Below are positions 53,547 through 60,335 of a DNA stretch of 64,000 nucleotides, piece by piece. The notes under the pieces are model-generated. The model saw only the letters and a list, made by a program, of their open reading frames with translations, searched no databases and was not told where the DNA came from. Positions within the stretch are counted from its first letter, which is position 1. Each line of letters starts with the position of its first letter. Position numbers and translations under genes: made by a program. The stretch spans positions 62,001-126,000 of the forward strand of contig QCFI01000002.1 in NCBI GenBank assembly GCA_003280295.1, in the 5' to 3' direction. The DNA comes from Prochlorococcus sp. AG-363-C20. Its GTDB lineage: Bacteria > Cyanobacteriota > Cyanobacteriia > PCC-6307 > Cyanobiaceae.

Positions 53547-54293
53547 ATGACTAAATTGCAGATTATTAACAAGGGATGTGGGTTTATTAAGTTGCCCAAT
53601 ATTGGGGAGGAGTTCTATAATTTGATAATTTCCTCTATCGAAATTCATTTGCAAAAACAGCTAAAAACTCTGAATCCAAATGATAATTTAATTAAATTAA
53701 AAAAATCAATTTTAGAAAACTACTCATTAATAAACGAATCTGTCTGGTCTGATCTATTTTCTAAAAGTTATAGATCACTAGGACAGGCAGAAGCCAATAA
53801 ACTCTCCCCATACTTTATCAAATACTTATCTCAACAATTAAATACTAGTATAGAATTAAGTGACGATCTTAATTTAGGTTATCCATGTTTTTCAATTAGA
53901 CTTGTAAGGCCACAAAATTACTCAGATATAGGGCCAATCCATGCTGATCAATGGTTTATTGATATAGGTGCAACACGTGAAAGGTTTGGCAAACAAAAAA
54001 GTGAACTGCTCAAATTCTGGTTGCCATTAGTATCGTCAAAATCCAAATCTAATCTATTAGTCTTACCATACTCACAACGAAATCCTGATAAATATAAATA
54101 TGATTCAGTAGAAACAGAATATGGAAAGAAGCCTAAGCTAATTACAAATATTACACCTAATGAAATGACTATGATCGACAATAAACCTGGCGAACCAGTT
54201 ATCTTTCATATGTTATTAATGCATGGTGGTGCACTTAACACTTCTAGAACTTATAGGCTGAGTTTAGAATTTGAATTTTTCGCAACTATTTAA
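53547..54293 (+). CDS. PhyH-like 2-oxoglutarate/Fe(II) dioxygenase
   Basis: A 248-residue protein. The metal triad of non-haem Fe(II) oxygenases is visible: His132 and Asp134 in PIHADQWF (HXD) and His226 in MLLMHGGALN, followed by Arg234 in NTSRTYRLSLEF as the likely 2-oxoglutarate ligand. This is the layout of the PhyH family (phytanoyl-CoA hydroxylase, ectoine and SyrB2-like halogenase relatives). The Asp excludes a halogenase, which has Ala or Gly there. Substrate unknown. It converges on a radical SAM gene 76 bases away, suggesting the two act on the same molecule. Confidence 0.7.
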   Translation: MTKLQIINKGCGFIKLPNIGEEFYNLIISSIEIHLQKQLKTLNPNDNLIKLKKSILENYSLINESVWSDLFSKSYRSLGQAEANKLSPYFIKYLSQQLNTSIELSDDLNLGYPCFSIRLVRPQNYSDIGPIHADQWFIDIGATRERFGKQKSELLKFWLPLVSSKSKSNLLVLPYSQRNPDKYKYDSVETEYGKKPKLITNITPNEMTMIDNKPGEPVIFHMLLMHGGALNTSRTYRLSLEFEFFATI

Positions 54294-54369
54294 TATTTAT
54301 TATCCAATATAAATACTAATTAATGAAAAGAAGAAATATCTCTTTAATAAAGATAATAACAAGCAACTC

Positions 54370-55548
54370 CTATAGAAAGTTTACATGCAAAGGTGGTTCA
54401 CCTTCGGACTTATCTTGTATATTTTCAGTATTATTTTTATGTCTCCATAAGGCAGTGTTTACATAATGCTGTATAGGTAAACTGCCCATCATATATCGAG
54501 CATCAAATTTAGGCCCTACTAAATAATCCATAACTTGGTCATATCTTGCAGAGTTAAAAATATCTTTAAATCGCTTTTCAGTATAGTTTCCTATATGTAA
54601 CTTCGAATGCTTTGCATTAAAAAACATTCCTGATGGAGCAACTAAACCACTCCCACTAATCTGTAGCAAAAACCTTGGTCCCCACATTTGAGTATATTCA
54701 GGTGTCCCTCCATCAAATATTTTTGACCACTTAACTATTACTTTTGTCTGATCTGTACTTAATGCCTCAGCTTGTTGAAGCAAAGGATATTTATCAAAGT
54801 ATTGATTATAATCAACCCCTAAAGAACCTTCTTCATCATCAGAACAATGTTTAATTACAGCATAATCTACTCCAAGATCTACTCCTAACTTTGCGAATGG
54901 AATAATTTCATCACTAAAGTCAGGCATCAAAACCATTTGAATGCCAAGAGTAACAGGTAAATTTAATCTTTTTTTCAATTCAACAGCATATTTTATATTT
55001 TTCATTGCATTGTCAAAAACCTTGGTATAACTAGCATCTTTATACATTATCTCTGCATATCGAGAAGGTGTTCCTGCAGCCACTGTAAATCTCACCCAAG
55101 ACATATTGGGTAAAACCCTATCCACTTTCTCTGGACCCCAATCCCATGCATTAGTTGCATTCCCTACATCAATCCCGATTTCTCCAGCGTGCTCTATAAA
55201 TGGAACATAAGCTGGAGACAAAGTACTTTCACCATCAGATATCAAAGACACCCCTCTAACTCCAATTTCTTTAAAATCATCTAATAAGTTCAGTGAGTCA
55301 TTAATAGTTATAGCCCTTCGCTCTTGCGGCTCTTGCACCATTGCATAGCAAAATTGGCACATCGCTCCACAACTACGAGTAAGCGCCATATCAACACTGA
55401 CAGGAGCAATTTTAACTCCAGCTTCCCAGTCTTTTATTCGATCATAGTGAAAAGAAAGCTTATGGCTATCGAGTACAAGAGTGCCATCTTTTGTACTGAT
55501 ACCTTGTTGAAGCTCCCTTTTTGATTCAACCAGCGACATTTTGCTCAT
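54370..55548 (-). CDS. Radical SAM protein
   Basis: A 392-residue enzyme with the radical SAM motif CX3CX2C at Cys60, Cys64 and Cys67 (CGAMCQFCYAM), which binds the [4Fe-4S] cluster that splits SAM. A TIM-barrel follows (GVRGVSLISDGESTLSPAY is the second conserved strand). The C-terminal part (SGLVAPSGMFFNAKHSKL, HIGNYTEKRFKDIF) resembles a SPASM/twitch fold but without its extra cysteines. Such enzymes modify peptides, tRNA, sugars or lipids; nothing here tells which. It converges on the dioxygenase-like gene. Confidence 0.8.
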   Translation of the reverse strand: MSKMSLVESKRELQQGISTKDGTLVLDSHKLSFHYDRIKDWEAGVKIAPVSVDMALTRSCGAMCQFCYAMVQEPQERRAITINDSLNLLDDFKEIGVRGVSLISDGESTLSPAYVPFIEHAGEIGIDVGNATNAWDWGPEKVDRVLPNMSWVRFTVAAGTPSRYAEIMYKDASYTKVFDNAMKNIKYAVELKKRLNLPVTLGIQMVLMPDFSDEIIPFAKLGVDLGVDYAVIKHCSDDEEGSLGVDYNQYFDKYPLLQQAEALSTDQTKVIVKWSKIFDGGTPEYTQMWGPRFLLQISGSGLVAPSGMFFNAKHSKLHIGNYTEKRFKDIFNSARYDQVMDYLVGPKFDARYMMGSLPIQHYVNTALWRHKNNTENIQDKSEGEPPLHVNFL

Positions 55549-57560: not shown

Positions 57561-57590
57561 AACTTTAGGTTGTATAGTCGGCATTTATTC
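57561..57590 (-). repeat. Relic copy of argJ 3' end (putative att site)
   Basis: This 30-base block matches 59075-59104 at 25 of 30 positions. In the argJ frame it reads stop, INADYTT, stop, the same last seven residues as ArgJ. The three codon differences within those residues (ATA for ATT, TAT for TAC, ACA for ACC) are all synonymous, so it is a displaced gene end rather than a chance match. The shared core is TAGTCGGCATT at 57575-57585. Confidence 0.7.
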
Positions 57591-57597
57591 ACTACAT
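57584..57597 (+). repeat. Left inverted repeat, TTTATTCACTACAT
   Basis: A 14-base sequence whose exact reverse complement is at 59017-59030. A direct 11-base copy (ATTCACTACAT) recurs at 57609-57619. They sit just inside the argJ copies, as recombinase arm sites or terminal repeats would. Confidence 0.6.
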
Positions 57598-57649
57598 CTT
57601 TTGTTTTGATTCACTACATATTGATATCACTGCCTTTAGAGATAAAAAG

Positions 57650-57691
57650 ATAATCACACAATAATCACACTCAATCAAAAAATAATCACAC
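57650..57691 (+). repeat. Three direct repeats of ATAATCACAC
   Basis: Perfect 10-base units at 57650-57659, 57661-57670 and 57682-57691, and a near copy (ATAATCACAG) at 58990-58999 close to the right end. They resemble iterons or recombinase/regulator binding sites; function unknown. Confidence 0.55.
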
Positions 57692-57724
57692 TCCTTTCAT
57701 TGGATGTAGCACAAGGCATACTTA

Positions 57725-57750
57725 CGGTCATGCCGCTTCCTTCATGACCG
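57725..57750. promoter_or_regulatory. Palindrome upstream of the cassette
   Basis: CGGTCATG (57725-57732) and CATGACCG (57743-57750) form a perfect 8-bp inverted repeat with a 10-base spacer, 114 bases before the first cassette gene. A candidate operator or hairpin in an otherwise AT-rich tract. Confidence 0.45.
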
Positions 57751-57864
57751 AGGCAATTTAATTTCTTAATGCAAGTTCAGACCTTCTATCAATAGATGGA
57801 TAATATGGGTGTAACAGTCGATTTAAAAAAAACAAGTAGAATGATATTAGTTGAATAGCTCAAA

Positions 57865-58077
57865 ATGGGTCTTAACTCTAAAGAAACAGCTTGGGCAATG
57901 GGGTTCCTAGAATCAGTAGAAGATGGTAACAGTTTTCTGCAAGCATCTGCTATTGATGCAGTTATGTCTGAAGGGATAAATAGTGGCAAAATAGTTGATC
58001 CTCCAGATTATGAAGATACAGAGTCAGATGATATGGACGACATAGATGATATGGACGACATAGAGATGTTCCTCTAA
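57865..58077 (+). CDS. Acidic small protein (cassette gene 1)
   Basis: A 70-residue acidic protein. The N-terminal 45 residues look helical (NSKETAWAMGFLESVEDG, FLQASAIDAVMSEGINSG); the last 25 are almost all Asp, Glu and Met (DTESDDMDDIDDMDDIEMF). The tail is encoded by a perfect tandem duplication of 18 bases (GATGATATGGACGACATA at 58027-58044 and 58045-58062). The next gene begins 11 bases later. A short acidic protein in front of a basic partner recalls antitoxin/toxin or chaperone/effector pairs, but no family supports that here. Confidence 0.6.
   Translation: MGLNSKETAWAMGFLESVEDGNSFLQASAIDAVMSEGINSGKIVDPPDYEDTESDDMDDIDDMDDIEMFL
58027..58062 (+). repeat. Perfect 18-bp tandem duplication
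   Basis: GATGATATGGACGACATA occurs twice in a row and adds DDMDDI twice in the acidic tail of the first cassette protein. It is in frame and could vary by slippage. Confidence 0.85.
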
Positions 58078-58088
58078 GTCAAGCTGAT

Positions 58089-58949
58089 ATGTCAGATTCA
58101 ACTACACCTACACAAAGTAATCTAGATTTAGATGCCAACGAATTTTTTTGGAATTGTAGTACTCAAGATTTAATTAATAATCAAATAGAAATGCTTTGCA
58201 ATACAGGATCAATGCAAAGTATTGAAACCACAAAAAACGTAATTAAATCTCTTGCCCCTCTAACTCTAGGTCCTGTGGGCGCTGTGGGTGCTTTTTTTTT
58301 AAAAGATAAATTAAATTTAGAAGTATGGAAGGATCCGGACACATTTACGTCCAATATTTTAGACGGTATTCCAAATACTGATCTTGCAAAGTCACTAATA
58401 AATAGTATAAATCCAAATGAAAAGTTTATTGATAAAGGACTCTTTTTTAGAGATGTTGCAAAAGAGGAAATAAATAATCCCCTATCATCAGTACCTTGGA
58501 TTGGTAAAGCAGCTCAAAGAGTAGGGCAAAAGGTAAATAATGCTGAAGATAGAGAGTTAAGAAAAATTGAATATCAACATGGAAAAATAAATCATAGAAT
58601 TTATGAAATCTCTAAGAAAAAAATTGCAGAAATATCATATTTTCTTACAGACCAAGGAATCTGCATACCAGCTAGAAGAATGTTAATTGAAGATGCAGAT
58701 TTTCTAGAAAAAAGTCGATTATTAAAAATTACCAAAGCAAAAGAATGGATCAAGGATAACATATTCTCCAAAGTAATATTCTCTAAGAGCAAAGATTTTC
58801 TATATGAAATTAAAAAAATAGATCAACTAATACAACATCGGAAAATTACAAAGATGGTTTCCAAAACAGATAGTCAAGAGTATGAGGTTATGAATTCAAA
58901 CAACAAGAAATTTATTATTCTCGAAAAACCTTTGGGATCTGAAGCGTAA
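58089..58949 (+). CDS. Unknown protein (cassette gene 2), 286 aa
   Basis: A 286-residue protein I do not recognise. N-terminal acidic part, then a glycine-rich hydrophobic stretch (LAPLTLGPVGAVGAFFL, about residues 55-71), a middle segment (IPNTDLAKSLINSINPNEKF, VPWIGKAAQRVGQKVNNAED), and a long basic helical C-terminal third (YQHGKINHRIYEISKKKIAEI, RLLKITKAKEWIKDNIF). The hydrophobic stretch may cross or insert into a membrane. It is AT-rich, like the surrounding segment. Eleven bases separate it from the acidic gene, so they form an operon. No enzyme, recombinase or replication motif is visible. Confidence 0.65.
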   Translation: MSDSTTPTQSNLDLDANEFFWNCSTQDLINNQIEMLCNTGSMQSIETTKNVIKSLAPLTLGPVGAVGAFFLKDKLNLEVWKDPDTFTSNILDGIPNTDLAKSLINSINPNEKFIDKGLFFRDVAKEEINNPLSSVPWIGKAAQRVGQKVNNAEDRELRKIEYQHGKINHRIYEISKKKIAEISYFLTDQGICIPARRMLIEDADFLEKSRLLKITKAKEWIKDNIFSKVIFSKSKDFLYEIKKIDQLIQHRKITKMVSKTDSQEYEVMNSNNKKFIILEKPLGSEA

Positions 58950-59016
58950 ATCAAGCATCCTTTTTATCCAATTTTAAAATATAAAAATTATAATCACAGA
59001 ACTGTCACACTCTCAC

Positions 59017-59030
59017 ATGTAGTGAATAAA
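59017..59030 (-). repeat. Right inverted repeat, ATGTAGTGAATAAA
   Basis: Perfect reverse complement of 57584-57597, about 45 bases inside the right argJ end. Confidence 0.6.
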
Positions 59031-59074
59031 AGATCTCCCTAACTCCTTTCCAGTAGATAGATTGGAGTAATCAC

Positions 59075-59104
59075 AATTTTAGGTGGTGTAGTCGGCATTA
59101 ATCC
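59075..59104 (-). repeat. Functional argJ 3' end copy (putative att site)
   Basis: Partner of the block at 57561-57590. It lies inside and just past argJ and encodes its last residues INADYTT plus the stop (59079-59081). The shared core TAGTCGGCATT is at 59089-59099. Confidence 0.7.
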
Positions 59105-60335
59105 GAACATATTGATCAGACAAATCACAACCCCACGCCACTGCTGAACCAATATCATGTCCTACTACTAATCGAATAGATACACAATCGTCTACTAGAT
59201 AGGCCCCATTCATTCTCTGAAAAATATATCTAGATGCAGCTTGTTGATCAAATTCCATCGGATGCCCTTCTTTCATTACTTGATAAGGACCAATCCAGAG
59301 AGAAAATTCATCTAATAAAAAATTAACCCCTGCTCTCCCTGCCGCAGCAATTATCCGTCCCCAATTAGGGTCGCAACCATGTATAGCAGTCTTAACCAAA
59401 GAAGAACTGCAAATCGTACGAGCAATTTCCTTGGCAGATTCATCTCTATCAGTGCCCGTTACTTGTACTTCTAATAAACAGTTAGACCCTTCACCATCTC
59501 TTGCAATCGATTTAGCCAAATACTGAGATGTCAATGTCATACCAACTTCTAAAGCATCCAAATGCTTATGAGGTAATGGTTCCCCAGCAGCAAAAGCCAA
59601 AAAGGAATCATTGGTACTTGTATCTCCATCAACTGTTATTGAATTAAAAGAACGTTCTGCTACTCGCTTTATCATTCCTGACCATAAATCAACGGGTATG
59701 TATGCATCACAAGTTATAAATGCAAGCATTGTCGCCATATTGGGATGAATCATTCCAGATCCTTTTGCCATACCTCCAATACGTACCCTTCGTCCATCTA
59801 AATAGGCTTCATATGCAATTTGTTTCTCAACAAGATCAGTGGTCAATATTGCATGTGCAGCAGCATCACCCCCTTTATCACTCAATCTCTTACTAAGAAG
59901 ATCAAGATGGGAAATTAAGTTGTCAATAGGTATTGGCTCACCTATTACACCTGTAGAGCAAATCAAGATCTGGTCTGCAAACAAACCTAATCGCTCTGCA
60001 AGAGCTTTAGTTGCAAGTAAGCTATCACTCATGCCCCGCTGACCAGTACATGCATTTGCTTGTCCTGAATTAACAAGGACAGCTCTTATCCTTTGTGGAT
60101 CTGAATTCAAACGGGAAATACAAAGATCAACACAAGACGCTCGAAGCAAAGATTGGGTAAATGTTCCCGCACAAACAGCACCATCAGGGGCAAGCAACAA
60201 AGCCAGGTCTGATTTGCCTGACACTTTCAGCCCAGCTTTAACACCTGATGCCTTAAAACCAGTGGGCATAGTTATCCCACCAGTTATAGGAGACCATAGA
60301 GAAGTAGCCGAGAGGCTCAAAACTTCCAAAAGCAA
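59079..60335 (-). CDS. argJ: Bifunctional ornithine acetyltransferase/N-acetylglutamate synthase
   Basis: A 418-residue enzyme of the cyclic arginine pathway that moves the acetyl group from N-acetylornithine to glutamate. It cleaves itself at the Met-Ala/Thr bond in IHPNMATMLAF, where the Thr becomes the nucleophile. Other motifs: GQANACTGQRG, DGDTSTNDSFL and GCDPNWGRIIAAAGRAG. Its 3' end is the target of the duplication at 57561-57590; the functional stop is at 59079. It diverges from coaE with 24 bases between starts. Confidence 0.96.
   Translation of the reverse strand: MLLEVLSLSATSLWSPITGGITMPTGFKASGVKAGLKVSGKSDLALLLAPDGAVCAGTFTQSLLRASCVDLCISRLNSDPQRIRAVLVNSGQANACTGQRGMSDSLLATKALAERLGLFADQILICSTGVIGEPIPIDNLISHLDLLSKRLSDKGGDAAAHAILTTDLVEKQIAYEAYLDGRRVRIGGMAKGSGMIHPNMATMLAFITCDAYIPVDLWSGMIKRVAERSFNSITVDGDTSTNDSFLAFAAGEPLPHKHLDALEVGMTLTSQYLAKSIARDGEGSNCLLEVQVTGTDRDESAKEIARTICSSSLVKTAIHGCDPNWGRIIAAAGRAGVNFLLDEFSLWIGPYQVMKEGHPMEFDQQAASRYIFQRMNGAYLVDDCVSIRLVVGHDIGSAVAWGCDLSDQYVRINADYTT

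Follow-up and report, generated by a model that had tools for sequence, protein, structure and literature searches.

Why does the end of argJ occur twice in this stretch of Prochlorococcus DNA? In the window (the whole 64-kb stretch analysed, taken from a 1.75-Mb draft genome that is 86% complete), the 3' end of argJ reads ATT AAT GCC GAC TAC ACC ACC TAA. An outer copy, ATA AAT GCC GAC TAT ACA ACC TAA, is located on the same minus strand at 57565-57588, and the three codons in which it differs are each changed synonymously. The earlier note had described this doubling, and re-reading both copies bears it out: the spacing is 1514 bp, and the repeat spans 28 nt at 86% identity. The locus comprises the following features.

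59079-60335, minus strand: argJ, the target gene, with its frame intact (Pfam ArgJ, 3e-129).
59079-59099, minus strand: inner core AATGCCGACTACACCACCTAA, the present argJ end, probably cassette-derived from the overlap onward (repeat comparison and crossover mapping).
59092-59099, minus strand: inner 8-bp overlap AATGCCGA, where strand exchange is placed by linked base changes.
57565-57585, minus strand: outer core AATGCCGACTATACAACCTAA, the putative displaced argJ end (repeat comparison and pattern search).
57578-57585, minus strand: outer copy of the overlap AATGCCGA (linked base changes).
57586-59099, no strand: the window cassette, 1514 bp including one core copy (repeat spacing; missing from relatives).
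58089-58949, plus strand: 286-aa ORF, cargo, with no relatives found.
57865-58077, plus strand: 70-aa ORF, possible cargo, with an acidic C-terminus.

The 1.5-kb segment is very probably a non-autonomous integrative cassette, site-specifically integrated at the 3' end of argJ by an integrase supplied in trans. In the mechanism we propose, a tyrosine integrase would recombine a circular cassette with the argJ 3' end within the overlap AATGCCGA. The core of the cassette (AATGCCGA plus the last 13 bases) would replace the argJ end and leave argJ intact, and the old end would be pushed 1514 bp away. Every integration would remake the target, which would allow cassettes to pile up in tandem behind argJ, and the integrase would be provided in trans by larger elements with the same site and the same end repeats.

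As the earlier note stated, the window cassette encodes no recombinase; its only ORFs are those of 70 and 286 aa. Neither has a Pfam, PHROG or NCBIfam assignment, and no phage-type packaging or capsid-diverting genes, as a phage satellite would carry, were found in the cassette. A scan of IMG/VR with the 286-aa cargo protein gave no match, and its single-sequence structure model (pLDDT 38) was unusable. Among 300 family genomes this protein occurs in one, the window's own, which disposes of the possibility, raised in the earlier note, that all relatives have the same 1.5 kb in place.

Apart from the shortness of the outer repeat, nothing speaks for its being a coincidental match or a relic of gene duplication. 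The argJ-end core pattern (21 bases, at most two mismatches) occurs twice in the 64-kb window, at these two places alone, against a mean of 0.03 in the shuffled window, which in the same search never had two. A profile and a loose pattern found no third, degenerate core past 57561 within the window. In a pattern search of 400 family genomes, extra argJ-end copies were found just downstream of argJ in many, giving a total of five copies in the complete genome G005 (spacings 1268, 1079, 684 and 841 bp), three in G004 and up to six in another genus. The 0.59 Mb downstream of 80 argJ loci contains 29 extra cores, all in argJ orientation, and the controls at these loci (antisense, reversed pattern, and 631 kb upstream) gave 0 matches each. 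Together with the cores of the sister genus described below, the total is 50 in about 0.73 Mb, with none in the controls, and unrelated DNA lies between the copies in each genome. A coincidental origin of the repeat, which we regard as practically impossible, is also refuted by the empty-site and cassette-exchange tests described below.

A single-consensus search without codon degeneracy had the same outcome, and its mismatches are concentrated at the six third-codon positions, which hold 145 of them, whereas the twelve positions that come first or second in a codon hold 41. We read each core copy as probably having once been a working argJ end, a pattern to which tolerance of the integrase at third positions would add. 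At least two same-strand cores are present on one contig in 19 of 41 genomes in the genus of G062 and in 4 of the 8 genomes of the window's genus. The cassettes between cores measure about 0.5 to 11.6 kb, and their contents differ from genome to genome. The repeats thus bound other cargo in relatives, where the earlier note had proposed to look for it, and its reservation that the outer match might be coincidental falls away. In Prochlorococcus and its relatives the argJ end is a docking site at which small cassettes with their own last codons of argJ insert one behind another, and the window cassette is a member of such tandem arrays, which are found across picocyanobacteria.

Some cores are located away from argJ (L060 in G162:C1, L066, L075 and L076) and mark possible secondary sites. 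The core in G162 is 350 kb from argJ, with an integrase match about 5 kb off. At L058 (G114), a core array 5-9 kb downstream of argJ runs opposite to argJ orientation, which suggests an inversion. Three core matches in IMG/VR were rejected as chance matches, as they look like unrelated phage contigs.

Empty sites are available in the genus of G024 (genomes of 1.6-1.8 Mb; L241-L257), a sister genus of the window's. There, ArgJ ends in INSEYTT, and the DNA has AATAGCGA in place of AATGCCGA. The 21 argJ-end cores behind argJ in this genus are in the AATAGCGA form (control matches 0), and the repeat core thus follows the sequence of the host's own argJ. In three genomes argJ is followed directly by a conserved tail, GTTTTAGTAAATCT..., and these are empty alleles; in others this tail, or one much like it, comes after the outermost core. 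For eight arrays we removed in silico everything between the first and the last core at the overlap and compared the product with the three empty alleles. The excision restored the empty allele in 24 of 24 comparisons, with about 2 kb aligned across the junction at 82-98% identity (best match 98.05%, no gaps). The comparison of argJ 3' regions suggested in the earlier note thus yields empty sites, in this sister genus. The pairs of empty and occupied alleles all come from the sister genus and not from near relatives of the window, in whose own genus the stretch that separates argJ from the conserved downstream genes is variable even apart from the cassettes. In the window itself, a 2OG-Fe(II) oxygenase-like gene and a radical SAM gene (53547-55548) are situated past the outer core and before the conserved downstream genes; this stretch has no counterpart in same-genus relatives and is perhaps an older insertion.

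Near-identical cassettes recur in different arrays, where they join unlike neighbours at the repeat. A 1.3-kb cyanase cassette, 93-97% identical from core to core, is fourth in L067, first in L165 and third in L064, with different neighbours. Similarly, a 1.7-kb HupE/UreJ cassette (90-99% identical) is second in L063 and first in L152, L177 and L059, and in L064 it is placed after the last core. To map the crossover, we compared every pair of cores that resemble each other on just one side. The bases at core positions 8, 11, 14, 17, 19 and 20 vary along with the downstream flank, and the base at position -1 varies along with the upstream one; strand exchange is therefore placed within the eight bases AATGCCGA, between -1 and 8. 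Eight bp is an ordinary overlap length for tyrosine recombinases. On this mapping, the final 13 bases of argJ would come from the incoming cassette.

Cassettes could in principle spread at argJ ends by homologous recombination or tandem duplication, with no site-specific recombinase, since the cores could act as short homology and strains often exchange flanks. However, the joins are confined to an 8-bp interval, and cores of about 21 bp between unrelated flanks are short for such exchange. Integrases at a fixed distance from the cores and matching motifs at both cassette ends, both described below, also argue against this route, and we consider it very improbable.

Two classes of tyrosine integrase adjoin the argJ-end repeats. 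In all 8 distinct cases, class 1 (open frames of 447-475 aa) begins 104-135 bp past a core and on its strand; for class 2 (about 470-555 aa), the start is at most 184 bp from a core of the opposite strand in all 10 full-length cases. Class 2 matches lambda Int (1.5e-4), and in G173 PF00589 scores above the cut-off; class 2 integrases adjoining cores are also present in larger genomes of the family. Class 1 is remote by sequence (PF00589 about 1e-4, below the cut-off; XerD 3.5e-8; no PDB match by sequence). Its structure model (mean pLDDT 71.7) matches the Tn1549 integrase, XerA, Cre and lambda Int (best E 2.6e-8, probability 1.00), with modest TM-scores of about 0.3-0.5, and the alignment retains the R, K, R-H and Y positions that a family member should have. 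A class 1 integrase, 47% identical, is also located behind argJ in the AATAGCGA genus (L245). An IMG/VR scan with the integrase gave no match, and a tblastn search against annotated phages retrieved only remote Streptococcus phage integrases (about 28% identity). The empty sites, the joins at the repeat, the crossover in AATGCCGA and these adjoining integrases together strongly support the earlier note's proposal of site-specific integration into the 3' end of argJ with the gene restored.

The class 1 integrases of L043, L154 and L215 are carried by a common parent element of 6.0-6.7 kb, which encodes the integrase, a protein of about 150 aa, a ParB_N/DNA methylase fusion and a second, small tyrosine recombinase (about 200 aa). 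No conjugation gene was recognised in these 6-kb parents in a non-exhaustive look.

The ends of the window cassette carry several repeats, as follows.

57650-57691, minus strand: three GTGTGATTAT repeats (57650, 57661, 57682) at the right end, proposed integrase arm sites, common to the integrase-bearing L043 and L154.
58990-59012, minus strand: GAGTGTGACAGTTCTGTGATTAT, related repeats at the left end.
57584-57619, minus strand: ATGTAGTGAAT, two direct copies 22 bp apart, adjoining the outer core.
59017-59030, plus strand: ATGTAGTGAATAAA, an inverted copy near the left end.

GTGTGATTAT is the argJ-strand reading of ATAATCACAC, the form in which the earlier note had reported the three repeats; all three were located, versus 0.14 expected. 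The 14-bp inverted repeats that the same note had placed near the termini are present as a perfect pair (57584-57597 and 59017-59030), but they lie just inside the core and are not the termini of the element. The right end has two direct copies, and a third, inverted, is found close to the left end; the direct ATGTAGTGAAT pair is arranged in the same way in L058 and L150.

Across the arrays, 28 of 81 cassettes have one of seven motifs at each end, compared with 0.12% of stretches paired at random from these loci; the end and arm motifs had been chosen by eye before counting. The end motif tracks the integrase clade: GTGTGATTAT accompanies the L043 and L154 integrases, G[TC]GACTAA those of L183 and L219, and GTGATAA those of L215 and L216. 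GTGTGATTAT is also present in integrase-less cassettes, namely that of the window, the second in L040 and the first in L065. Aligned to other right ends, the right end of the window cassette scores 130 with L058, 79 with L043, 71 with L040 and 62 with L154 (shuffled maximum 28). No integrase was seen for the TATACC-ended cassettes, which include the cyanase cassette. Within the 70 bp around cores of all fetched loci, a further motif, TTGNTATNACT, is phased at -36 and -57 and also occurs near +32/+42 downstream; 48 of 84 outer cores have it at most 70 bp upstream, versus 8 of 84 in a control stretch, and it is possibly the site of an accessory factor.

Since the window cassette has no integrase of its own but has the GTGTGATTAT ends of the 6-kb class 1 elements, we infer that it is mobilised in trans, probably by a class 1 integrase of the L043/L154 type encoded elsewhere. 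A circular intermediate, use of the end repeats as arm sites and transfer between cells would be part of this process. The earlier note's idea of a mini-element mobilised in trans is thus well supported by end motifs in common with integrase-bearing elements, short of proof. The recombinase that it suggested might be found elsewhere in the genome did not appear: neither class 1 nor class 2 was found in the 86% complete draft, nor in the complete genome G005, so a helper would be transient or missed. A conserved tyrosine recombinase of about 390 aa beside a corrinoid adenosyltransferase-like gene was considered as helper and rejected, as it has no link to the cores.

Alternatively, the cassette could be the decayed remnant of a larger element that lost its own integrase by deletion and is now immobile. 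An 88-aa truncated class 1 integrase in one array (L045/G020) illustrates such decay, and both the missing integrase in the window genome and a cargo without relatives would fit it. However, different arrays contain the same integrase-less cassettes whole, both ends included, at 93-99% identity, which points to movement after integrase loss, and the window cassette keeps both ends and its three arm repeats. We therefore consider decay unlikely and favour mobilisation in trans.

The cargo of the arrays includes cyanase, HupE/UreJ, sulfate permease, restriction-modification enzymes, a CHAT domain protein, FkbM methyltransferases and apparently secreted proteins. One cargo protein (alignment A3) matches PHROG phrog_6020 'major head protein' (2.9e-29), although the member was not traced in two attempts; this phrog_6020-like cargo could bear on how the elements travel. 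Elsewhere in the window's genome (L211; G000:C38:9000-14241), a HupE/UreJ gene with 83% identity over 0.68 kb to the argJ-cassette gene adjoins a tyrosine recombinase, with no core nearby.

The argJ arrays have features of several known systems; in operation they resemble a CIME or an additive genomic island, with tandem, att-flanked and mostly integrase-less units next to a single gene. CIMEs (cis-mobilisable elements) are att-flanked, have no integrase and accrete in tandem with integrase-bearing relatives that share their ends. The window cassette is likewise att-flanked and integrase-less, with ends in common with an integrase-bearing element; its putative parents are the 6-kb elements, among which no conjugative parent was recognised in the look described above. 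In integrons, a tyrosine recombinase adds small cassettes to an array at a fixed anchor, with IntI/attI at the anchor and attC between the cassettes. The argJ arrays also consist of small cassettes at a fixed anchor, but there is no IntI/attI at that anchor, the core is the end of a coding gene, and the integrase rides in some of the elements. Judged by anchor and core they are not integrons, as the arrays start at argJ without an integrase gene unless an element brings one.

Genomic islands with tyrosine integrases are known in protein-coding genes, such as SGI1 at the trmE 3' end (PMC8409611) and the dusA islands (PMC4482086). As in these, the integrase gene lies beside att, the direct repeat is the gene end and the target is restored. 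Unlike them, the argJ elements use argJ as target, most units are 0.5-3 kb without an integrase, they form long tandem arrays, and several integrase clades with different end motifs act on one overlap. The window cassette has the gene-end direct repeats and the restored gene of an island, whereas an integrase inside the element is found only in related elements at the same site; it is thus a non-autonomous derivative and not a full island. In the additive flexible genomic islands of Alteromonas (PMC4119200), and with the tRNA-Lys end repeats of Methylophilaceae (PMC10872708), cassettes are also stacked next to a single gene, with copies of its end between them. Those islands target tRNA genes, whereas the argJ arrays use a protein-coding gene and their repeats vary at synonymous sites.

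Tycheposons, as far as the accessible part of their description goes, are Prochlorococcus elements of 4-200 kb with a recombinase, located at seven tRNA genes (PMC10872708). On that description, the argJ cassettes resemble them in their host, the tyrosine recombinase and ecologically useful cargo, and differ from them in being mostly far smaller and in their site, which is argJ; no tRNA is present in L043, L154 or L219. The window cassette, at 1.5 kb with no recombinase inside, falls outside the size and recombinase content so described, and the 6-kb parents fall within the size range. We found no paper in the literature on argJ as an integration site, although overlap with the original tycheposon description is possible. 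The argJ system combines known chemistry with an apparently undescribed target, arrays of minimal cassettes, several integrase clades that use one core, and a core sequence that changes with the host gene.

How streamlined Prochlorococcus genomes with few classical mobile elements gain and lose genes is an open question, and the argJ end offers, in several genera of the family, a fixed and predictable point of entry and exit for individual, ecologically important genes (cyanase, a HupE/UreJ transporter, restriction-modification). How a mobile element can be tied to a coding sequence is illustrated by a core that varies only synonymously and that, in another genus, matches the argJ end of its own host. 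With the target, the overlap, the end motifs and two candidate integrase classes named, the system is directly testable, and a small natural integration system that uses a conserved site and spares its target gene could serve cyanobacterial genetics. More broadly, we give an even chance to the view that a protein-coding gene here anchors an integron-like system of cassette exchange across the whole lineage, in which many integrase clades with different end motifs would act on one 8-bp overlap, mostly integrase-less cassettes would be moved in trans and the core would follow host codons (AATGCCGA to AATAGCGA), and which would have been kept through Prochlorococcus diversification as a standing gene-exchange route. 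Abundant photosynthesisers of the ocean appear to gain genes through the argJ system as a common route that has not been described before.
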